DNA from: Prochlorococcus sp. AG-347-I06
Lineage (GTDB): Bacteria > Cyanobacteriota > Cyanobacteriia > PCC-6307 > Cyanobiaceae
Reading direction: 5' to 3'
Length of the DNA: 64,000 nt
Assembly: GCA_003281605.1 (NCBI GenBank)
Contig: QCBM01000001.1
Span: 186,001-250,000, forward strand
Below, piece by piece: positions 6,333-40,719 of the stretch; position 1 is the stretch's first letter; each line of letters begins with the position of its first letter. Position numbers and translations under genes: made by a program. Under the pieces are notes generated by a model that was given only the letters and a program-made list of their open reading frames with translations, ran no database searches and was not told where the DNA came from.

Positions 6333-6430
6333 TTTTTTAGCTCCGGTTTCGCTTAAGTCCCCGTTCCATGGCTTAAGTCGATTTGCGGCTTGCTACACGC
6401 AAGTTGAACGTTTTGGTAGCGGTTGCTACA
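6333..6430 (-). promoter_or_regulatory. Structured GC-rich leader of the DUF4278 gene
   Basis: On the minus strand this stretch is far richer in GC than its surroundings and folds into successive hairpins: GTAGC-AACC-GCTAC (6416-6429), CTTGC-GTGTA-GCAAG (6389-6403), and two CTTAAG hexamers (6372-6377 and 6352-6357) that can pair with each other. GACTTAAGC is also an exact direct repeat spaced 20 bp. A 10-codon arginine-rich upstream ORF (MERGLKRNRS, 6337-6369) ends 4 nt before the DUF4278 start. It could be a cis-regulatory leader or an independent sRNA; the RNA class is not recognised. Confidence 0.45.
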
Positions 6431-30987: not shown

Positions 30988-31006
30988 AAAAATAAGTTAG
31001 AGTTAG

Positions 31007-31187
31007 ATTACTGGATCTTTGGTTAAGTTCTTCTTTATGTGCTCTGATCTGACTCTCTTTCGACATGAGGAGACTGTCGTGATGCGGTAGTAAACCGATC
31101 TTGTAATCGGAAACGAAAGCCCACTTTGAATCCTCTTCTGGCATTTCCAGGTCGATGCAGCAGAGAACTGACGGGGATCCGGTATTA
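31007..31187 (+). ncRNA. ssrS: 6S RNA (Yfr7/ssaA)
   Basis: A GC-richer stretch, not protein coding, directly downstream of purK on the same strand, exactly where cyanobacterial 6S RNA genes sit. The ends pair: TACTGGATC (31009-31017) with GATCCGGTA (31176-31184) forms the closing stem (one G-U), and the interior gives the long rod with a central bulge expected of 6S RNA, including GATCTTGTAATCGG. 6S RNA sequesters RNA polymerase holoenzyme. End points are accurate to about 5 nt. Confidence 0.88.
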
Positions 31188-31295
31188 CCTATCAAACTGC
31201 ATGTTATTACACGCTTTTGGTAGTTATTTTATTTTATTGGAATAACTGAGCTGTTTTTTTCTCTATCAGTGTAAATAATTTATTTGCCAAAATAC

Positions 31296-31345
31296 TTGAC
31301 GATCCATTTCTTATGTATTTATATTAGTAGTACACATGTATTACT
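31296..31345 (+). promoter_or_regulatory. Promoter and inverted-repeat operator of DUF1651 gene 1
   Basis: TTGACG (31296-31301), an 18-bp spacer and TATATT (31320-31325) form a good sigma-70 type promoter. Immediately downstream, AGTAGTACA-CA-TGTATTACT (31326-31345) is a near-perfect inverted repeat, 8 of 9 bp pairing. The same block, with the same order, precedes the second DUF1651 gene. The repeat covers the likely transcription start, so a repressor is the simplest reading (inferred). Confidence 0.55.
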
Positions 31346-31350
31346 AAGTA

Positions 31351-31650
31351 ATGACTTTAGGAGGAGCTAATGTTTGGACTAATTTTTCTTACGGTTATCG
31401 TAATGAGTCCCCAAGTGGTTGGTTGCTTAGCCCAGACCGCAGCAGATTAATTTTATTTGTAAGGAATAAAAAATCTCCAAGAAATAGTATGAGAATTTTT
31501 GCTCATACATATTATGCAAATGATCTTGGTGAGCCAATGGCAATTAAATCATCCACTCAAATGTATTTGGATAATGCTTGGGATAAATGGCATGACCTTC
31601 AATTAGAAGGTTGGACTTTTGAAGAACTTGAATTACCTGAATCTGTATGA
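31351..31650 (+). CDS. DUF1651 family protein, copy 1
   Basis: 99 residues. DUF1651 is a small marine picocyanobacterial family of unknown function. The family core PSGWLLSPDRSRLILFVR is at about residues 21-38, followed by HTYYANDLGEPM and DKWHDLQLEGWTFEEL, which match the second copy at 33794 in order. First gene of a tight run: its stop overlaps the next ORF start (ATGA at 31647). The first 33 codons also encode a second frame (31370-31450). It starts only 5 nt after the operator. Confidence 0.82.
   Translation: MTLGGANVWTNFSYGYRNESPSGWLLSPDRSRLILFVRNKKSPRNSMRIFAHTYYANDLGEPMAIKSSTQMYLDNAWDKWHDLQLEGWTFEELELPESV
31370..31450 (+). CDS. Overlapping 26-codon ORF, signal-peptide-like, copy 1
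   Basis: Out-of-frame ATG at 31370 inside DUF1651 copy 1, with a strong Shine-Dalgarno GGAGGAG at the right distance. The product MFGLIFLTVIVMSPQVVGCL plus six residues is hydrophobic and has a lipobox-like VVGC. The second DUF1651 locus has the same-offset, same-length ORF. Much of the sequence is also under constraint from the DUF1651 frame, so coding is not proven. Confidence 0.3.
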   Translation: MFGLIFLTVIVMSPQVVGCLAQTAAD

Positions 31651-31787
31651 CTAACTTAAATCCAATCAAAAAGAAATTATCAAAAGTAGATAGAAAAATA
31701 TCTATGCAAGACCCATCAAAATTATTAGCAGAATTTTTTAATGGTGTTGTCATTGAACTTGATGAAGAATATAAATATGACTCATAA
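31647..31787 (+). CDS. Small hypothetical protein, coupled to DUF1651
   Basis: 46 residues, ATG at 31647 overlapping the DUF1651 stop as ATGA, so translation is likely coupled. Basic first half (NPIKKKLSKVDRKI) and acidic C-terminus (ELDEEYKYDS). No family recognised. Its end overlaps the next ORF by 11 nt. Confidence 0.55.
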   Translation: MTNLNPIKKKLSKVDRKISMQDPSKLLAEFFNGVVIELDEEYKYDS

Positions 31788-31929
31788 AGAATTGATAGAT
31801 CAAGTTTCCTCAAATTTATTTAAACAAAGTGGAAAGTTAGAAAGTAGAAGATCTTGGTTGGCAATGAGAAATTATCTTGAACAATTAGATACCGAACAAC
31901 TTAAATCCATGCTTAAGGACCACGGATGA
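31777..31929 (+). CDS. Small helical hypothetical protein
   Basis: 50 residues from ATG at 31777 (MTHKELIDQV). An upstream in-frame ATG at 31741 would add 12 residues inside the previous gene and is less likely. The protein is helical and charged, with RRSWLAMRNYLEQLDTEQLKSML, and lacks a membrane segment. It is third in the DUF1651 run, overlapping its neighbour by 11 nt. Confidence 0.6.
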   Translation: MTHKELIDQVSSNLFKQSGKLESRRSWLAMRNYLEQLDTEQLKSMLKDHG

Positions 31930-31939
31930 TTTAAAAACT

Positions 31940-32053
31940 TTATTTAGTTTTTATTTTTTTCTTAATTCTCAGAAAACCGTAAGTTGCAAAGCCAACCAAA
32001 AACATATCCAAGTAAATATGCCAAGTAGGAAAAATCTGGTGTATTAATTCCAT
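31940..32053 (-). CDS. 37-residue membrane microprotein
   Basis: Minus-strand ORF, ATG at 32053, TAA at 31940: MELIHQIFPTWHIYLDMF then a single helix (LVGFATYGFLRI) and a lysine-rich tail (KKKIKTK). Its ATG shares one base with the stop of the ligase-domain gene, so the two overlap head to tail and are probably cotranscribed. Unknown function. Confidence 0.55.
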   Translation of the reverse strand: MELIHQIFPTWHIYLDMFLVGFATYGFLRIKKKIKTK

Positions 32054-32802
32054 TAACGTTTTATTGCCACTTGCCAATAAGGATAATCTAAATTTGATTT
32101 TTCTCTAATCAATTGTAATTTTCTAGAATTTATTTTTACTACTATTCCATCTGTTGGATATTTACTAAAAAGCTTCCCTTCTAGCCATTGTTTTCTAAAT
32201 AATTCAACTTGGCTCGTAAAGTTGCATGAAATATCCTGAGGGATCGTGAAGCCAAGCTTTGAAAGACTTTTTTTGGACTCATATTGGTTAAGCGTTGAAT
32301 TAAGTATTTGAAATGCGCAGAAGCTAAGACTTTCAGAAAATCCTTCTTTAGCTCTTAGAAATCCAGAGGCGATTCTCTGGGAGATATTTGGAATTTGGTT
32401 GGGTGCATATAATTCACCTCTAACTTGAAGAACTCCTCGTAAAGGGAGATTATTGGGAATGTCTTGGACTTTAATAAGTTTATTAGTAACGTCTGCCCCT
32501 TTTCTTGAAATTGCTTTCTCAAAGGTTCCATCCCTATATTGCAAAGCAATAGCACAACCATCAATTTTTGGTTCAATTAATAATCTGGTATCTACTAATA
32601 ATCCTTTCAAAAATTCATCTATTGAATCCTTTTCTAATGAAGGTAAAACTAGTTTAGTTTTCTTTTTAAAGTAATCACAATTAGGGTTTGTTCTTAATAA
32701 ATTTTTTTCAAGTTTGTCGAACTGCTTATCAGAGATTAAAGCATTACCATTTCTATAATTGTCGTCATACCATTCAATTCGTTCTTCTAAATAAGTCTTC
32801 AT
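32053..32802 (-). CDS. Stand-alone NAD-dependent DNA ligase adenylation domain
   Basis: 249 residues. The fold is that of the LigA nucleotidyltransferase core: a short N-terminal helical part (YYDDNYRNGNALISDKQFDKLE), the active-site lysine motif EPKIDGCAIAL (KxDG; Lys about residue 98), VRGELYAPNQ, DGIVVKINSRKLQ and the ending YWQVAIKR. OB, zinc, HhH and BRCT domains of full LigA (about 670-700 residues) are all missing. It could adenylate itself and a partner, or nick-seal poorly. Not a broken gene: frame, start and length are clean. Confidence 0.85.
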   Translation of the reverse strand: MKTYLEERIEWYDDNYRNGNALISDKQFDKLEKNLLRTNPNCDYFKKKTKLVLPSLEKDSIDEFLKGLLVDTRLLIEPKIDGCAIALQYRDGTFEKAISRKGADVTNKLIKVQDIPNNLPLRGVLQVRGELYAPNQIPNISQRIASGFLRAKEGFSESLSFCAFQILNSTLNQYESKKSLSKLGFTIPQDISCNFTSQVELFRKQWLEGKLFSKYPTDGIVVKINSRKLQLIREKSNLDYPYWQVAIKR

Positions 32803-32994
32803 TTAATACGATGGCTTAAGTGTTTGGTCAGGTATCCAACTTGGTTTATCTACAATCCATTTTTCTCTATCTTCATATTCAACAGTCCATAAAAGAAATA
32901 AAGAAATTTCTTTTAGAGTTATGCCAACCAAATATCTTGTTTTTGGGCTTATTGACATAAATCCAAATAATAATATTAATATAAGTTTAAACAA
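32803..32994 (-). CDS. Small membrane protein
   Basis: 63 residues. A hydrophobic N-terminal segment (MFKLILILLFGFMSIS) is followed by a second partly hydrophobic stretch (LVGITLKEISLFLLWTV) and a polar C-terminus (DREKWIVDKPSWIPDQ). Its stop lies immediately before the ATG of the ligase-domain gene (zero-base gap), so it is probably in the same transcript. Confidence 0.6.
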   Translation of the reverse strand: MFKLILILLFGFMSISPKTRYLVGITLKEISLFLLWTVEYEDREKWIVDKPSWIPDQTLKPSY

Positions 32995-33037
32995 ACCTTT
33001 AATAATTTAAAAACTCAGCGTAATTTTTGCGAACTTT

Positions 33038-33295
33038 TTAATTAATGCAATTCTTATAACCTTCAATCTTTGCTAGTTCATCAATATTCAAACCTGTTTC
33101 TTCTAGTAAAGTTTCTCCTATAGCGTCCTTTTTGAATTTAGTTAAAGCTCCTTTAGTAGAGTACTTAATACATTGGTTTTTGTATTTTGCTTCTTTGACA
33201 ACAGGAGATAAATAAAAACCAAACAAGATGATAAAAGCCCCATAAGTTACAACTTTTCTGTGGTTTTTCCACCATTCATAAAATTTATTGGACAC
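33038..33295 (-). CDS. Small membrane-anchored hypothetical protein
   Basis: 85 residues. One membrane helix near the N-terminus (VVTYGAFIILFGFYLSPVV) after a basic tail, then a soluble C-terminal part with two Cys (NQCIKYSTKG and GYKNCIN) that could face the lumen or periplasm. No family recognised. A similar anchor-plus-two-Cys layout is seen in the gene ending at 61561 (KLDCEAI...NFCYGGEEI). Confidence 0.65.
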   Translation of the reverse strand: MSNKFYEWWKNHRKVVTYGAFIILFGFYLSPVVKEAKYKNQCIKYSTKGALTKFKKDAIGETLLEETGLNIDELAKIEGYKNCIN

Positions 33296-33364
33296 GAAAA
33301 ATAAATGACTATTTTCTATAGTAAATTGACTGTCAACAAATTACTTAAGAAATTTTAGGATTGG

Positions 33365-33673
33365 TTAATTTATTGTTTTATCATTAATAGATTTAACCCA
33401 AGAATAATATCTTGATTTTCTAATTCTTTGCTCTTTCGAGACTAATCTATCCGCAGATTCTAGGGGTGATTCTCCTTTCTCGACTTTTGTTGTAATAGAA
33501 ATACCAAAACCTTTTGCTTCAATTTTTGCAATGCCACCCTCTAAAAAAAATAAAAAAGACCAACCTTTATTCCATCCTAAATAGAAGGGATTTCGATACA
33601 TTGCATTCTTTTGGAGATACTCTTTAAATGATATTTTCCTTTTCAAAGAGTTACTTGTATTCACTATTACCAA
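33365..33673 (-). CDS. Hypothetical protein
   Basis: 102 residues, basic, with aromatic segments (NPFYLGWNKGWSFLFFLEGG) and a charged C-terminus (RLVSKEQRIRKSRYYSW). No obvious membrane helix or catalytic motif. Divergent from the second DUF1651 gene, so the 33674-33793 gap contains promoters for both. Confidence 0.6.
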   Translation of the reverse strand: MVIVNTSNSLKRKISFKEYLQKNAMYRNPFYLGWNKGWSFLFFLEGGIAKIEAKGFGISITTKVEKGESPLESADRLVSKEQRIRKSRYYSWVKSINDKTIN

Positions 33674-33741
33674 ATAAGAAGTTTACGGTTGATTATTTCT
33701 AGAAAGTAATTTTAGTATTTAAATAATTAACAGAGGAATAC

Positions 33742-33790
33742 TTGACGTCTACGAGTAGTACATTTATATTAATAGTACAACTGTATTATC
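33742..33790 (+). promoter_or_regulatory. Promoter and inverted-repeat operator of DUF1651 gene 2
   Basis: TTGACG (33742-33747), 17-bp spacer, TATATT (33765-33770), then AATAGTACA-AC-TGTATTATC (33771-33790), an inverted repeat with 7 of 9 bp pairing. The order and sequence match the block before DUF1651 copy 1. An additional AGTAGTACA half-site lies in the spacer (33754-33762). Confidence 0.55.
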
Positions 33791-33793
33791 TTT

Positions 33794-34084
33794 ATGACTT
33801 CAGGAGTCGCTAATGTTCGGACTTATTTTTATCGTGGCAGCCTTATTGACCCCCCAACTGGCTGGTTGTTTAACAAAAAAAGTGGTTTATTAATTTTTTT
33901 TGAGAGTTATAAGAAATCTGTATCTAATAACTTAAAAGTATATACTCATCTTTTCTATGCAAATGAATTAGGTGAACCAGCCCAAATTAAAAATTCAAGA
34001 CTTCATTCTATTGAGTGTGCTTGTGAAACATGGAATGAATTAATTTCAGGAGGTTGGCAAATTGTTACTCATAAATTCCAGTAA
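33794..34084 (+). CDS. DUF1651 family protein, copy 2
   Basis: 96 residues, a paralogue of the protein at 31351: PPTGWLFNKKSGLLIFFES aligns with the copy 1 core, and HLFYANELGEPAQIKNS and ETWNELISGGW align with the later segments. It is followed 2 nt later by the zinc-ribbon-like gene. The two DUF1651 loci share promoter, operator, leader and first 33 codons but have different downstream genes, so the duplicated part is the front of the operon. Confidence 0.82.
   Translation: MTSGVANVRTYFYRGSLIDPPTGWLFNKKSGLLIFFESYKKSVSNNLKVYTHLFYANELGEPAQIKNSRLHSIECACETWNELISGGWQIVTHKFQ
33813..33893 (+). CDS. Overlapping 26-codon ORF, signal-peptide-like, copy 2
   Basis: Same 19-nt offset from the DUF1651 start and same 26 codons as the ORF at 31370. 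Shine-Dalgarno AGGAG precedes ATG. MFGLIF, PQ and GC are retained (product MFGLIFIVAALLTPQLAGCL plus six residues, lipobox-like LAGC) and third positions of F2, L4 and C19 change silently. Coding is a hypothesis. Confidence 0.3.
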   Translation: MFGLIFIVAALLTPQLAGCLTKKVVY

Positions 34085-34086
34085 TC

Positions 34087-34320
34087 ATGATCAAGGTAAA
34101 TCCGTCAAAATGGGAATATCTAAAAGAATCTACCTTAAAACGAAAACGAACAAAGATTTGTATTTCTTGCAATCACTTTCGCTACAGCACTACAGAAACT
34201 TTTGCTACTATCTTGATCTGTCCAAAATACGAAAAACTCATACCACAGGGTGATCATTTACTTAAAGGCTGTGAGTATTGGCAAAAAAATAGGACGATAT
34301 TTTCTCCTGAAGCATCTTAA
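34087..34320 (+). CDS. Zinc-ribbon-like small protein
   Basis: 77 residues. Basic N-terminal half (LKESTLKRKRTK) then CISC-NHF, a cysteine at ILICPKY and a further cysteine at KGCEYW: a C-x2-C plus two single Cys pattern, with His between, compatible with a structural zinc site. Cotranscribed with DUF1651 copy 2 (2 nt gap). Function unknown. Confidence 0.65.
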   Translation: MIKVNPSKWEYLKESTLKRKRTKICISCNHFRYSTTETFATILICPKYEKLIPQGDHLLKGCEYWQKNRTIFSPEAS

Positions 34321-40187: not shown

Positions 40188-40247
40188 AGGATTTGGACTT
40201 GAAGTTTTTAAAATTAAGTGATTATCATAGTGATCCCAAAACAAATT

Positions 40248-40359
40248 TGTGGATAGTTTTTTCTTAAAAGAAGATAATATTTTATTTTGCACATAGAAAT
40301 CCAAATTTAATCAACATATTGTGGAAAACCCTGTTGAAAAACACTTAAAAAGTGGATAA
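40248..40359. other. Cluster of DnaA-box-like 9-mers
   Basis: TGTGGATAG (40248-40256), TGTGGAAAA (40320-40328), TGTTGAAAA (40332-40340) and AGTGGATAA (40351-40359) are all variants of the reverse complement of TTWTCCACA, all in the same orientation, within 112 bp. The 40320 site is the cyanobacterial consensus. AT-rich sequence follows (40480-40640). A chromosomal origin normally has more boxes and neighbouring dnaN or dnaA; neither is seen. Confidence 0.35.
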
Positions 40360-40719
40360 CTCTTCGGGAGCATTATCAAAACAAGCTTTTCTGGAAAAAT
40401 ATTTAAGTATTAATACTTCATCAAAAAAAATTAAATGTAGTTTAAAAAGTACCATAATCTCTTGTTATAACTGTGGGATCATTACTTTTTTAAAAAAGAA
40501 AAAAATCTATTCCAAGAGCACATGTTGATAAAGAATTTTAAAAAATTTTTTTCATGATGTATCAATTTGAAAATTAAAGTGAAGAAAAATCAATCTAAAC
40601 TTGAAATTTTTAATTTTTGCCTTAAGTGGTCAAAAAATATTTAATTCGGTTTTCTCTATGCAAATATTTCTCAAACCTAAAACTTATCAAATAGGGTTGG
40701 CTAAGTTTATAGATTTTAA
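40305..40719. other. Long AT-rich intergenic region
   Basis: About 415 bp with no credible protein-coding gene except a possible 21-codon ORF (40658-40723, MQIFLKPKTYQIGLAKFIDF...) that overlaps the next gene start as ATGA. The DnaA-box-like sites lie at its left end. Long T and A runs occur around 40490-40550. Confidence 0.5.

Follow-up and report, generated by a model that had tools for sequence, protein, structure and literature searches.

Why do two genes for DUF1651 proteins in one Prochlorococcus genome share a promoter, an inverted-repeat operator and a leader, and which regulator would act on both? The question is raised by a stretch of 64,000 nucleotides (nt) of Prochlorococcus sp. 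AG-347-I06 (contig QCBM01000001.1, positions 186,001 to 250,000 of the forward strand), here called the window, in whose coordinates positions are given unless another genome is named. We consider it likely that both loci are operons of the SOS response, predicted to be controlled by LexA, which produce the DUF1651 protein and, from an overlapping small open reading frame (sORF) inside the start of the same gene, a peptide that would compete with it. The elements concerned are the following (aa, amino acids; the predicted LexA boxes are given without a strand).

Locus 1
31296..31325, + strand: promoter TTGACG-18-TATATT, matching the consensus at 10 of 12 positions
31326..31345, no strand: predicted LexA (SOS) box with core AGTACACATGTATT at 31329-31342, directly 3' of the -10 and spanning the expected transcription start
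31351..31650, + strand: DUF1651 gene, 99 aa, PF07864 at 40.8 bits, the domain beginning at residue 23
31359..31364, + strand: Shine-Dalgarno AGGAGG of the sORF, present as AGGAGGA in 113 of 121 distinct sequences
31370..31450, + strand: candidate overlapping sORF in the +1 frame, 26 aa, MFGLIFLTVIVMSPQVVGCLAQTAAD, hydrophobic

Locus 2
33742..33770, + strand: promoter TTGACG-17-TATATT
33757-33770: second LexA-like site AGTACATTTATATT, with one mismatch, over the -10, partly conserved
33771..33790, no strand: predicted LexA (SOS) box with core AGTACAACTGTATT at 33774-33787
33794..34084, + strand: DUF1651 gene, 96 aa, PF07864 at 52.3 bits
33802..33806, + strand: Shine-Dalgarno AGGAG of the sORF
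33813..33893, + strand: candidate overlapping sORF in the +1 frame, 26 aa, MFGLIFIVAALLTPQLAGCLTKKVVY, hydrophobic

The operator and its assignment to LexA

A preliminary description of this DNA placed a promoter and a 20-bp palindrome in front of each gene and assigned both genes to DUF1651. The promoters and palindromes were confirmed at these positions, and both proteins score above the curated PF07864 cut-off of 22 bits. It also suggested a common repressor for both loci, which remains the best reading, and this repressor can now be given the putative name LexA. The core AGTACnnnTGTATT agrees with the LexA box AGTACWNWTGTACT published for cyanobacteria (PMC3091678) and with the form TAGTACA-N2-TGTACTA given for Prochlorococcus (PMC2921402), except that GTATT replaces GTACT in the second half; published lexA sites include ones ending in TGTATT (PMC3091678).

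The 1.52-Mb genome has four exact copies of the box AGTACNNNTGTAYT, one at each of the two loci, one at recA and one at a gene for a 68-aa protein, and near variants precede lexA (two sites) and umuD in the same genome, whose LexA carries the DNA-binding domain PF01726 and the S24 peptidase domain PF00717. When one mismatch is allowed, the counts in this genome equal those of a reversed-pattern control (28+32 versus 28+30), therefore single weak sites carry no weight. Further LexA-like boxes lie before the gene for the 68-aa protein (L002, two tandem sites at 1237 and 1257), before a 70-aa protein without a Pfam match (L005, about 1225) and before a DUF3104 protein (L007, about 982); these genes are candidates for the SOS regulon.

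Conservation was analysed in relatives of both loci, with identical sequences counted once; the best 80 of 195 confirmed relatives were taken, which biases the set towards close ones, and a genome may in some cases occur in it twice, under two labels. Alignment columns that are insertions with respect to the window were removed, and substitution counts omit the sequences gapped in DUF1651 (3 of 121 at locus 1 and 3 of 105 at locus 2), which leaves 118 and 102 distinct sequences, respectively. By parsimony, the half-sites TAGTAC and TGTATT of locus 1 show 0-1 changes per site and its centre 7, 27 and 5, and the half-sites TAGTACA and GTATT of locus 2 show 0 changes per site and its centre 6, 14 and 6. 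The -35 region CTTGAC is unchanged at both loci, and the last G of the -35 hexamer shows three changes at locus 1 and seven at locus 2.

Of 149 related genomes, 65 carry the pattern of box, spacing and TAATGTTYGGACT; every one of these belongs to the 91 of the same genus (many incomplete), and 49 have it twice, so the inverted repeat is not absent from related strains. A looser pattern, searched in an even sample of the family, occurs in 27 of 300 genomes, including 23 of the 24 same-genus ones; the remaining four matches, in three other genera, lie in stretches that look like chance. Furthermore, a LexA box stands at -260..+30 of the domain start in 15 of 43 distinct other DUF1651 loci, against 1.18 expected from the background of the same loci, and the genes with such a box span several other genera. 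This set was drawn from more than one search, one of which gave loci for 30 of its listed matches: the 52 listed loci, the window's two not among them, yielded 50 hits with 43 distinct upstream stretches, including the third DUF1651 gene of this genome and MED4 PMM0684. Control of both window loci by LexA is well supported by sequence.

By eye, five loci from other genera (L194, L195, L196, L205 and L210) show a LexA-like box, a leader of about 100 nt and an apparent terminator-like hairpin, followed by DUF1651; this leader is perhaps an SOS-controlled small RNA or an attenuator.

The two loci are not a recent tandem copy, an outcome that the preliminary description had named as refuting: the proteins are 38% identical, and the DNA upstream of the -35 and downstream of the genes is no more alike between the loci than shuffles. 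The first 33 codons had been called nearly collinear, which was overstated: the blocks that span the sORF have 65% DNA identity, with gaps, versus 60 ± 5% in shuffles. The remainder of the DUF1651 DNA gives 68% versus 64 ± 4%. Over the span of the sORF, 9 of 26 residues match in the DUF1651 frame and 11 of 26 in the +1 frame, with BLOSUM scores per residue of 1.35 and 2.50, respectively. The loci are read as diverged paralogues kept in high-light Prochlorococcus, and the genome taken for MED4 carries such a pair at two distant places. What had been missed is that the shared leader appears to double as a second reading frame, which ends at codon 33.

A second reading frame in the DUF1651 leader

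At both loci the DUF1651 start has no Shine-Dalgarno and, as judged from the -10, is no more than about 20 nt away from where the transcript is expected to begin. The sORF starts 19 bases inside DUF1651, in the +1 frame, and has 26 codons and a peptide beginning MFGLIF. The length of 26 codons is kept in nearly all of the 121 (locus 1) and 105 (locus 2) distinct sequences, which represent 293 matches, and MED4-type copies retain length and hydrophobicity, although not all letters. At locus 2 the sORF ATG is present in all 105 distinct sequences, one of which has a 25-codon form, and the DUF1651 ATG in 102; the three losses are ATA, ATT and one with a possible TTG start. At locus 1 the DUF1651 ATG is kept in 121 of 121. 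The predicted peptide resembles a single membrane segment, with maxima of 19-residue hydropathy of 1.99-2.25 in five variants, figures that stand without a control set.

At locus 2 the substitutions in the first half of the sORF follow the sORF frame. On a tree built solely from sequence 3' of the sORF, the DUF1651-synonymous third positions of DUF1651 codons 8-20, which form this half, show a mean of 1.15 changes versus 3.08 downstream (Mann-Whitney p = 6.5e-5; this and all following p-values are optimistic owing to relatedness and recombination). DUF1651 first positions, which are the third positions of the sORF, show in the same half a mean of 4.85 versus 1.83 downstream, and 21 of 31 DUF1651-changing alleles are silent in the sORF, where 40% were expected (p = 0.0019). 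Furthermore, the GGAG of the Shine-Dalgarno shows 0 changes at four sites, compared with a mean of 8.18 per site at neighbouring DUF1651 positions, and the sORF ATG likewise shows 0. At locus 1 both frames are near-frozen over the first half of the sORF (10 alleles at 39 sites), where changes at synonymous sites are only marginally low (p = 0.048); the second half has the substitution pattern of the DUF1651 frame. Support for the sORF as a gene is thus good at locus 2 and no more than suggestive at locus 1, and a translated sORF peptide is, overall, probable.

RNA structure was rejected as the cause of leader conservation, as the four stretches analysed fold no better than shuffles (z of 0.52, 0.24, -0.16 and 0.18). 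An Rfam search of six loci at low thresholds identified Cyano-1 RNAs at two of them, along with three matches below threshold; by position, none of these falls on the leaders. A lipoprotein or lipopeptide precursor, suggested by the lipobox LAGC, was likewise rejected, given that MED4-type variants have Tyr or Phe in place of the Cys and several other variants have Tyr. The third DUF1651 gene of this genome (L013, C4:73612-73824, - strand) has TTGACA-17-TATAAT followed by AGTACAAACGTATC in a similar place, and no MFGLIF-like sORF.

Proposed mechanism and competing explanations

We infer that a LexA dimer on the palindrome just 3' of the -10 would block transcription, and that DNA damage, or phage attack on host DNA, would activate RecA, with LexA self-cleavage and expression of the operons as the outcome. 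The mRNA would begin about 17-19 nt upstream of the DUF1651 ATG and would offer the ribosome a weak first start, that of DUF1651 without a Shine-Dalgarno, and a strong second start, that of the peptide, 19 nt on in the +1 frame. Two starts 19 nt apart are closer than a ribosome footprint, so they should compete: a ribosome on the sORF start would cover the DUF1651 start, and the two proteins would vie for initiation. By analogy with TisB, DinQ and SidA, the hydrophobic peptide of 26 residues may act at the membrane, where it could lower the energy state or delay division during damage; a toxin-like or checkpoint role is conjecture. A bolder version, which we offer tentatively and hold to be doubtful as a whole, is that high-light Prochlorococcus overprinted the start of an older SOS gene and so obtained a LexA- and phage-inducible membrane peptide, that the exclusive starts would let the damage level or the ribosome supply set the ratio of DUF1651 to growth-arresting peptide, and that the phage response would be partly SOS.

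Several observations weigh against SOS operons with an overlapping peptide gene. Regarding the operator, the rule used detects no box at 28 of the 43 distinct DUF1651 loci, and the main text of a study of mitomycin C in marine Synechococcus (PMC3744912) names none of SYNW1658, SYNW1944 and SYNW2106. Regarding the sORF at locus 2, the deficit of alleles that are silent in DUF1651 and change the sORF falls short of significance in the first half (p = 0.096), no effect of the sORF is seen in the second (p = 0.17 and 0.91), and one of the 105 sequences, L076, has lost the sORF core. At locus 1, synonymous conservation is absent over the whole sORF (p = 0.53), alleles silent in DUF1651 that change the sORF exceed expectation (19 versus 8.7), the sORF ATG is present in 118 of 121 distinct sequences and is ACG in three, and 3 of 121 have an sORF shortened to 19 codons, in one case together with two single-base gaps. 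This natural change of ATG to ACG is silent in DUF1651 (AAT to AAC). The hydropathy values, as said above, have no control set beside them. In addition, at least one out-of-frame open reading frame (ORF) of 18 codons or longer lies near the start in 9 of a further 19 DUF1651 loci (one from this genome, the rest from 11 other genera), and none of these ORFs is MFGLIF-like. Out-of-frame ORFs are common by chance, so the case for the sORF rests on conservation.

These points bear on three other explanations, some of which could hold together, or alongside parts of the one preferred here. If the loci were LexA-controlled DUF1651 operons only, the +1 ORF would be untranslated or without useful product, and its openness would come from the DUF1651 N-terminus and shared descent; the locus 1 substitutions that follow the DUF1651 frame, the rare sequences without the sORF start or core, and the lack of MFGLIF-like ORFs in the other genera, with chance ORFs as common as they are, would all fit. 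Nevertheless, we judge this unlikely, given that the pattern at locus 2 is that of the sORF frame, that GGAG and ATG are invariant there amid fast-changing neighbours, and that 3 of 105 locus 2 sequences have lost the DUF1651 ATG (one may use TTG), whereas none has lost that of the sORF. The unchanged Shine-Dalgarno and sORF start at locus 2 would also suit a regulatory leader, in which the ribosome drawn by the Shine-Dalgarno tunes DUF1651 by occlusion or frameshifts into DUF1651. Three of the 105 locus 2 sequences lack the DUF1651 ATG and retain the rest of the gene, which favours such a leader, as do two natural indels (L073 and L076) that place the sORF start in the DUF1651 frame. These indels come from draft assemblies of uncultured cells and are possibly errors, and the L073 frameshift, lying in dropped columns, is not in the conservation and substitution counts. 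In one variant, possible at locus 2 only, a -1 slip at ACA AAA AAA GTG would yield a membrane-anchored form of DUF1651. However, the constraint at locus 2 extends to the residues of the peptide, which would not matter if the sORF only trapped ribosomes, and the A-run is absent at locus 1 and changes are seen in it at locus 2, so that a regulatory leader seems quite improbable to us.

The slip sequence lies inside the locus 2 sORF at 33873-33884, where a -1 slip into the DUF1651 frame is possible.

It is also conceivable that the palindrome is the target of a different regulator with similar specificity, such as a factor that responds to oxidative stress or to phage. The assignment to LexA rests here on sequence, and oxidative stress rather than ultraviolet light has been argued to drive lexA in PCC9511 (PMC2921402). 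Against this stand the identical box before recA, the close variants before lexA and umuD, and the fit to two published LexA motifs, which make a regulator other than LexA very improbable. SOS operons with a competing overlapping peptide are retained as the preferred reading.

Neighbouring genes, phage induction and known systems

The genes around the two loci add to the comparison with MED4, and are listed here.

31005..31189, + strand: 6S RNA (Yfr7), Rfam RF00013 at 94.3 bits, upstream neighbour of locus 1, outside the operon, syntenic anchor to MED4 PMM0684
31647..31787, + strand: small protein of 46 aa overlapping the locus 1 DUF1651 stop, no Pfam match
31741..31929, + strand: small protein of 62 aa, with an inner ATG giving MTHKELIDQ...; a similar protein lies 3' of the second MED4 DUF1651 gene
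34087..34320, + strand: zinc-ribbon-like gene of 77 aa (CxxC...C...C), no Pfam family above cut-off

A counterpart of the 46-aa protein lies 3' of both MED4-type DUF1651 genes. A zinc-ribbon-like gene stands 3' of DUF1651 at window locus 2 and at MED4 PMM0684, and in three of the 28 loci without a box under the rule used (L197, L199 and L206) the box precedes a zinc-ribbon-like gene, which is followed by DUF1651; so box, DUF1651 and zinc-ribbon gene appear to travel together in changing order. Between the two loci, a protein of 249 aa (32053-32802, - strand) has a single Pfam match, to PF01653 (68.6 bits), the adenylation domain of NAD-dependent DNA ligase. The window also holds the RNA Yfr17 (40210-40475, + strand) and a glutamine-II riboswitch (6352-6413, - strand). 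An NCBIfam search gave matches far below cut-offs only.

In MED4, yfr7 (6S) is at 652625..652844, between purK and PMM0684 (PMC1242208). The genome taken for MED4 has boxes at 652,922 (+ strand) and within 774,726-774,776 (- strand); the DUF1651 gene at 652,944-653,243 adjoins yfr7, so it is PMM0684, and the second box would lie at the other DUF1651 gene of this type, presumably PMM0819. Both PMM0684 and PMM0819 rise during infection by P-SSP7, and DUF1651 was suggested as a possible stress gene (PMC5490813). PMM0684 belongs to the second wave of phage-induced genes, it lies near PMM0686, the most strongly raised host mRNA, and the antisense RNA asMED4_07401 opposite PMM0684 rises together with it (PMC2518516). 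In the window, a minus-strand promoter-like match (9 of 12) lies at 31479-31450, and such matches number 8 in the region versus 17.1 in shuffles. Control by LexA would explain why the MED4 counterparts rise upon phage infection.

In marine Synechococcus, mitomycin C induces an SOS response that includes recA, lexA and umuC (PMC3744912). The word SOS does not occur in the main text of PMC5490813, and neither LexA control nor an overlapping ORF is mentioned in the available portions of the accounts of phage-induced DUF1651 genes (PMC5490813 and PMC2518516). The main text of PMC3091678 names none of PMM0684, PMM0819, SYNW2106 and SYNW1944; its supplements may list some such genes. No prior report of the overlapping ORF was found in the titles and abstract openings of the 12 of 22 matching papers listed by a literature search. 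A phage origin of the genes was rejected, since a search of 50,697 phage records, made with the locus 2 DUF1651 protein alone, gave no hit at E up to 0.01, and no PHROG was matched by either DUF1651 protein; one coliphage with DUF1651 is mentioned in PMC5490813 and was not returned by the phage-record search.

LexA is proposed here as the regulator of a family that, in the literature searched, was found in print only for its rise during cyanophage infection, which turns the rise of these host genes into a testable SOS question. The loci are also a candidate for two same-strand bacterial genes sharing one DNA stretch, a case that population-scale sequence data support at one locus, in a photosynthetic organism that is very abundant in the ocean.

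Among known systems, TisB of E. coli is an SOS-controlled single-span peptide of a type I toxin-antitoxin pair, and SidA of Caulobacter is a small SOS-induced membrane inhibitor of division. The likeness to SidA, that of a short membrane peptide which would be LexA-controlled, serves as a working idea only, and we know of no overlapping-gene arrangement for SidA. DinQ of E. coli is a very short hydrophobic peptide under SOS control (PMC3567139), as is predicted for the sORF product here. Unlike DinQ and TisB, the peptide frame here overlaps another conserved gene, and the likeness is one of description, with no sequence kinship claimed; an antisense RNA to PMM0684 is also reported, but in MED4 it rises with its target (PMC2518516). 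The loci resemble the LexA/SOS regulon of marine picocyanobacteria (recA, lexA, umuDC) in having its palindrome at the promoter, within one genome, whereas the genes predicted to be controlled here are DUF1651 and small proteins without an assigned role. Finally, the phage-induced DUF1651 genes (PMM0684 and PMM0819; SYNW1658, SYNW2106 and SYNW1944; Syncc8109_0491) belong to the same Pfam family as the window loci, and in the genome taken for MED4 one box stands at PMM0684, the DUF1651 gene by yfr7, and the other at the second such gene.

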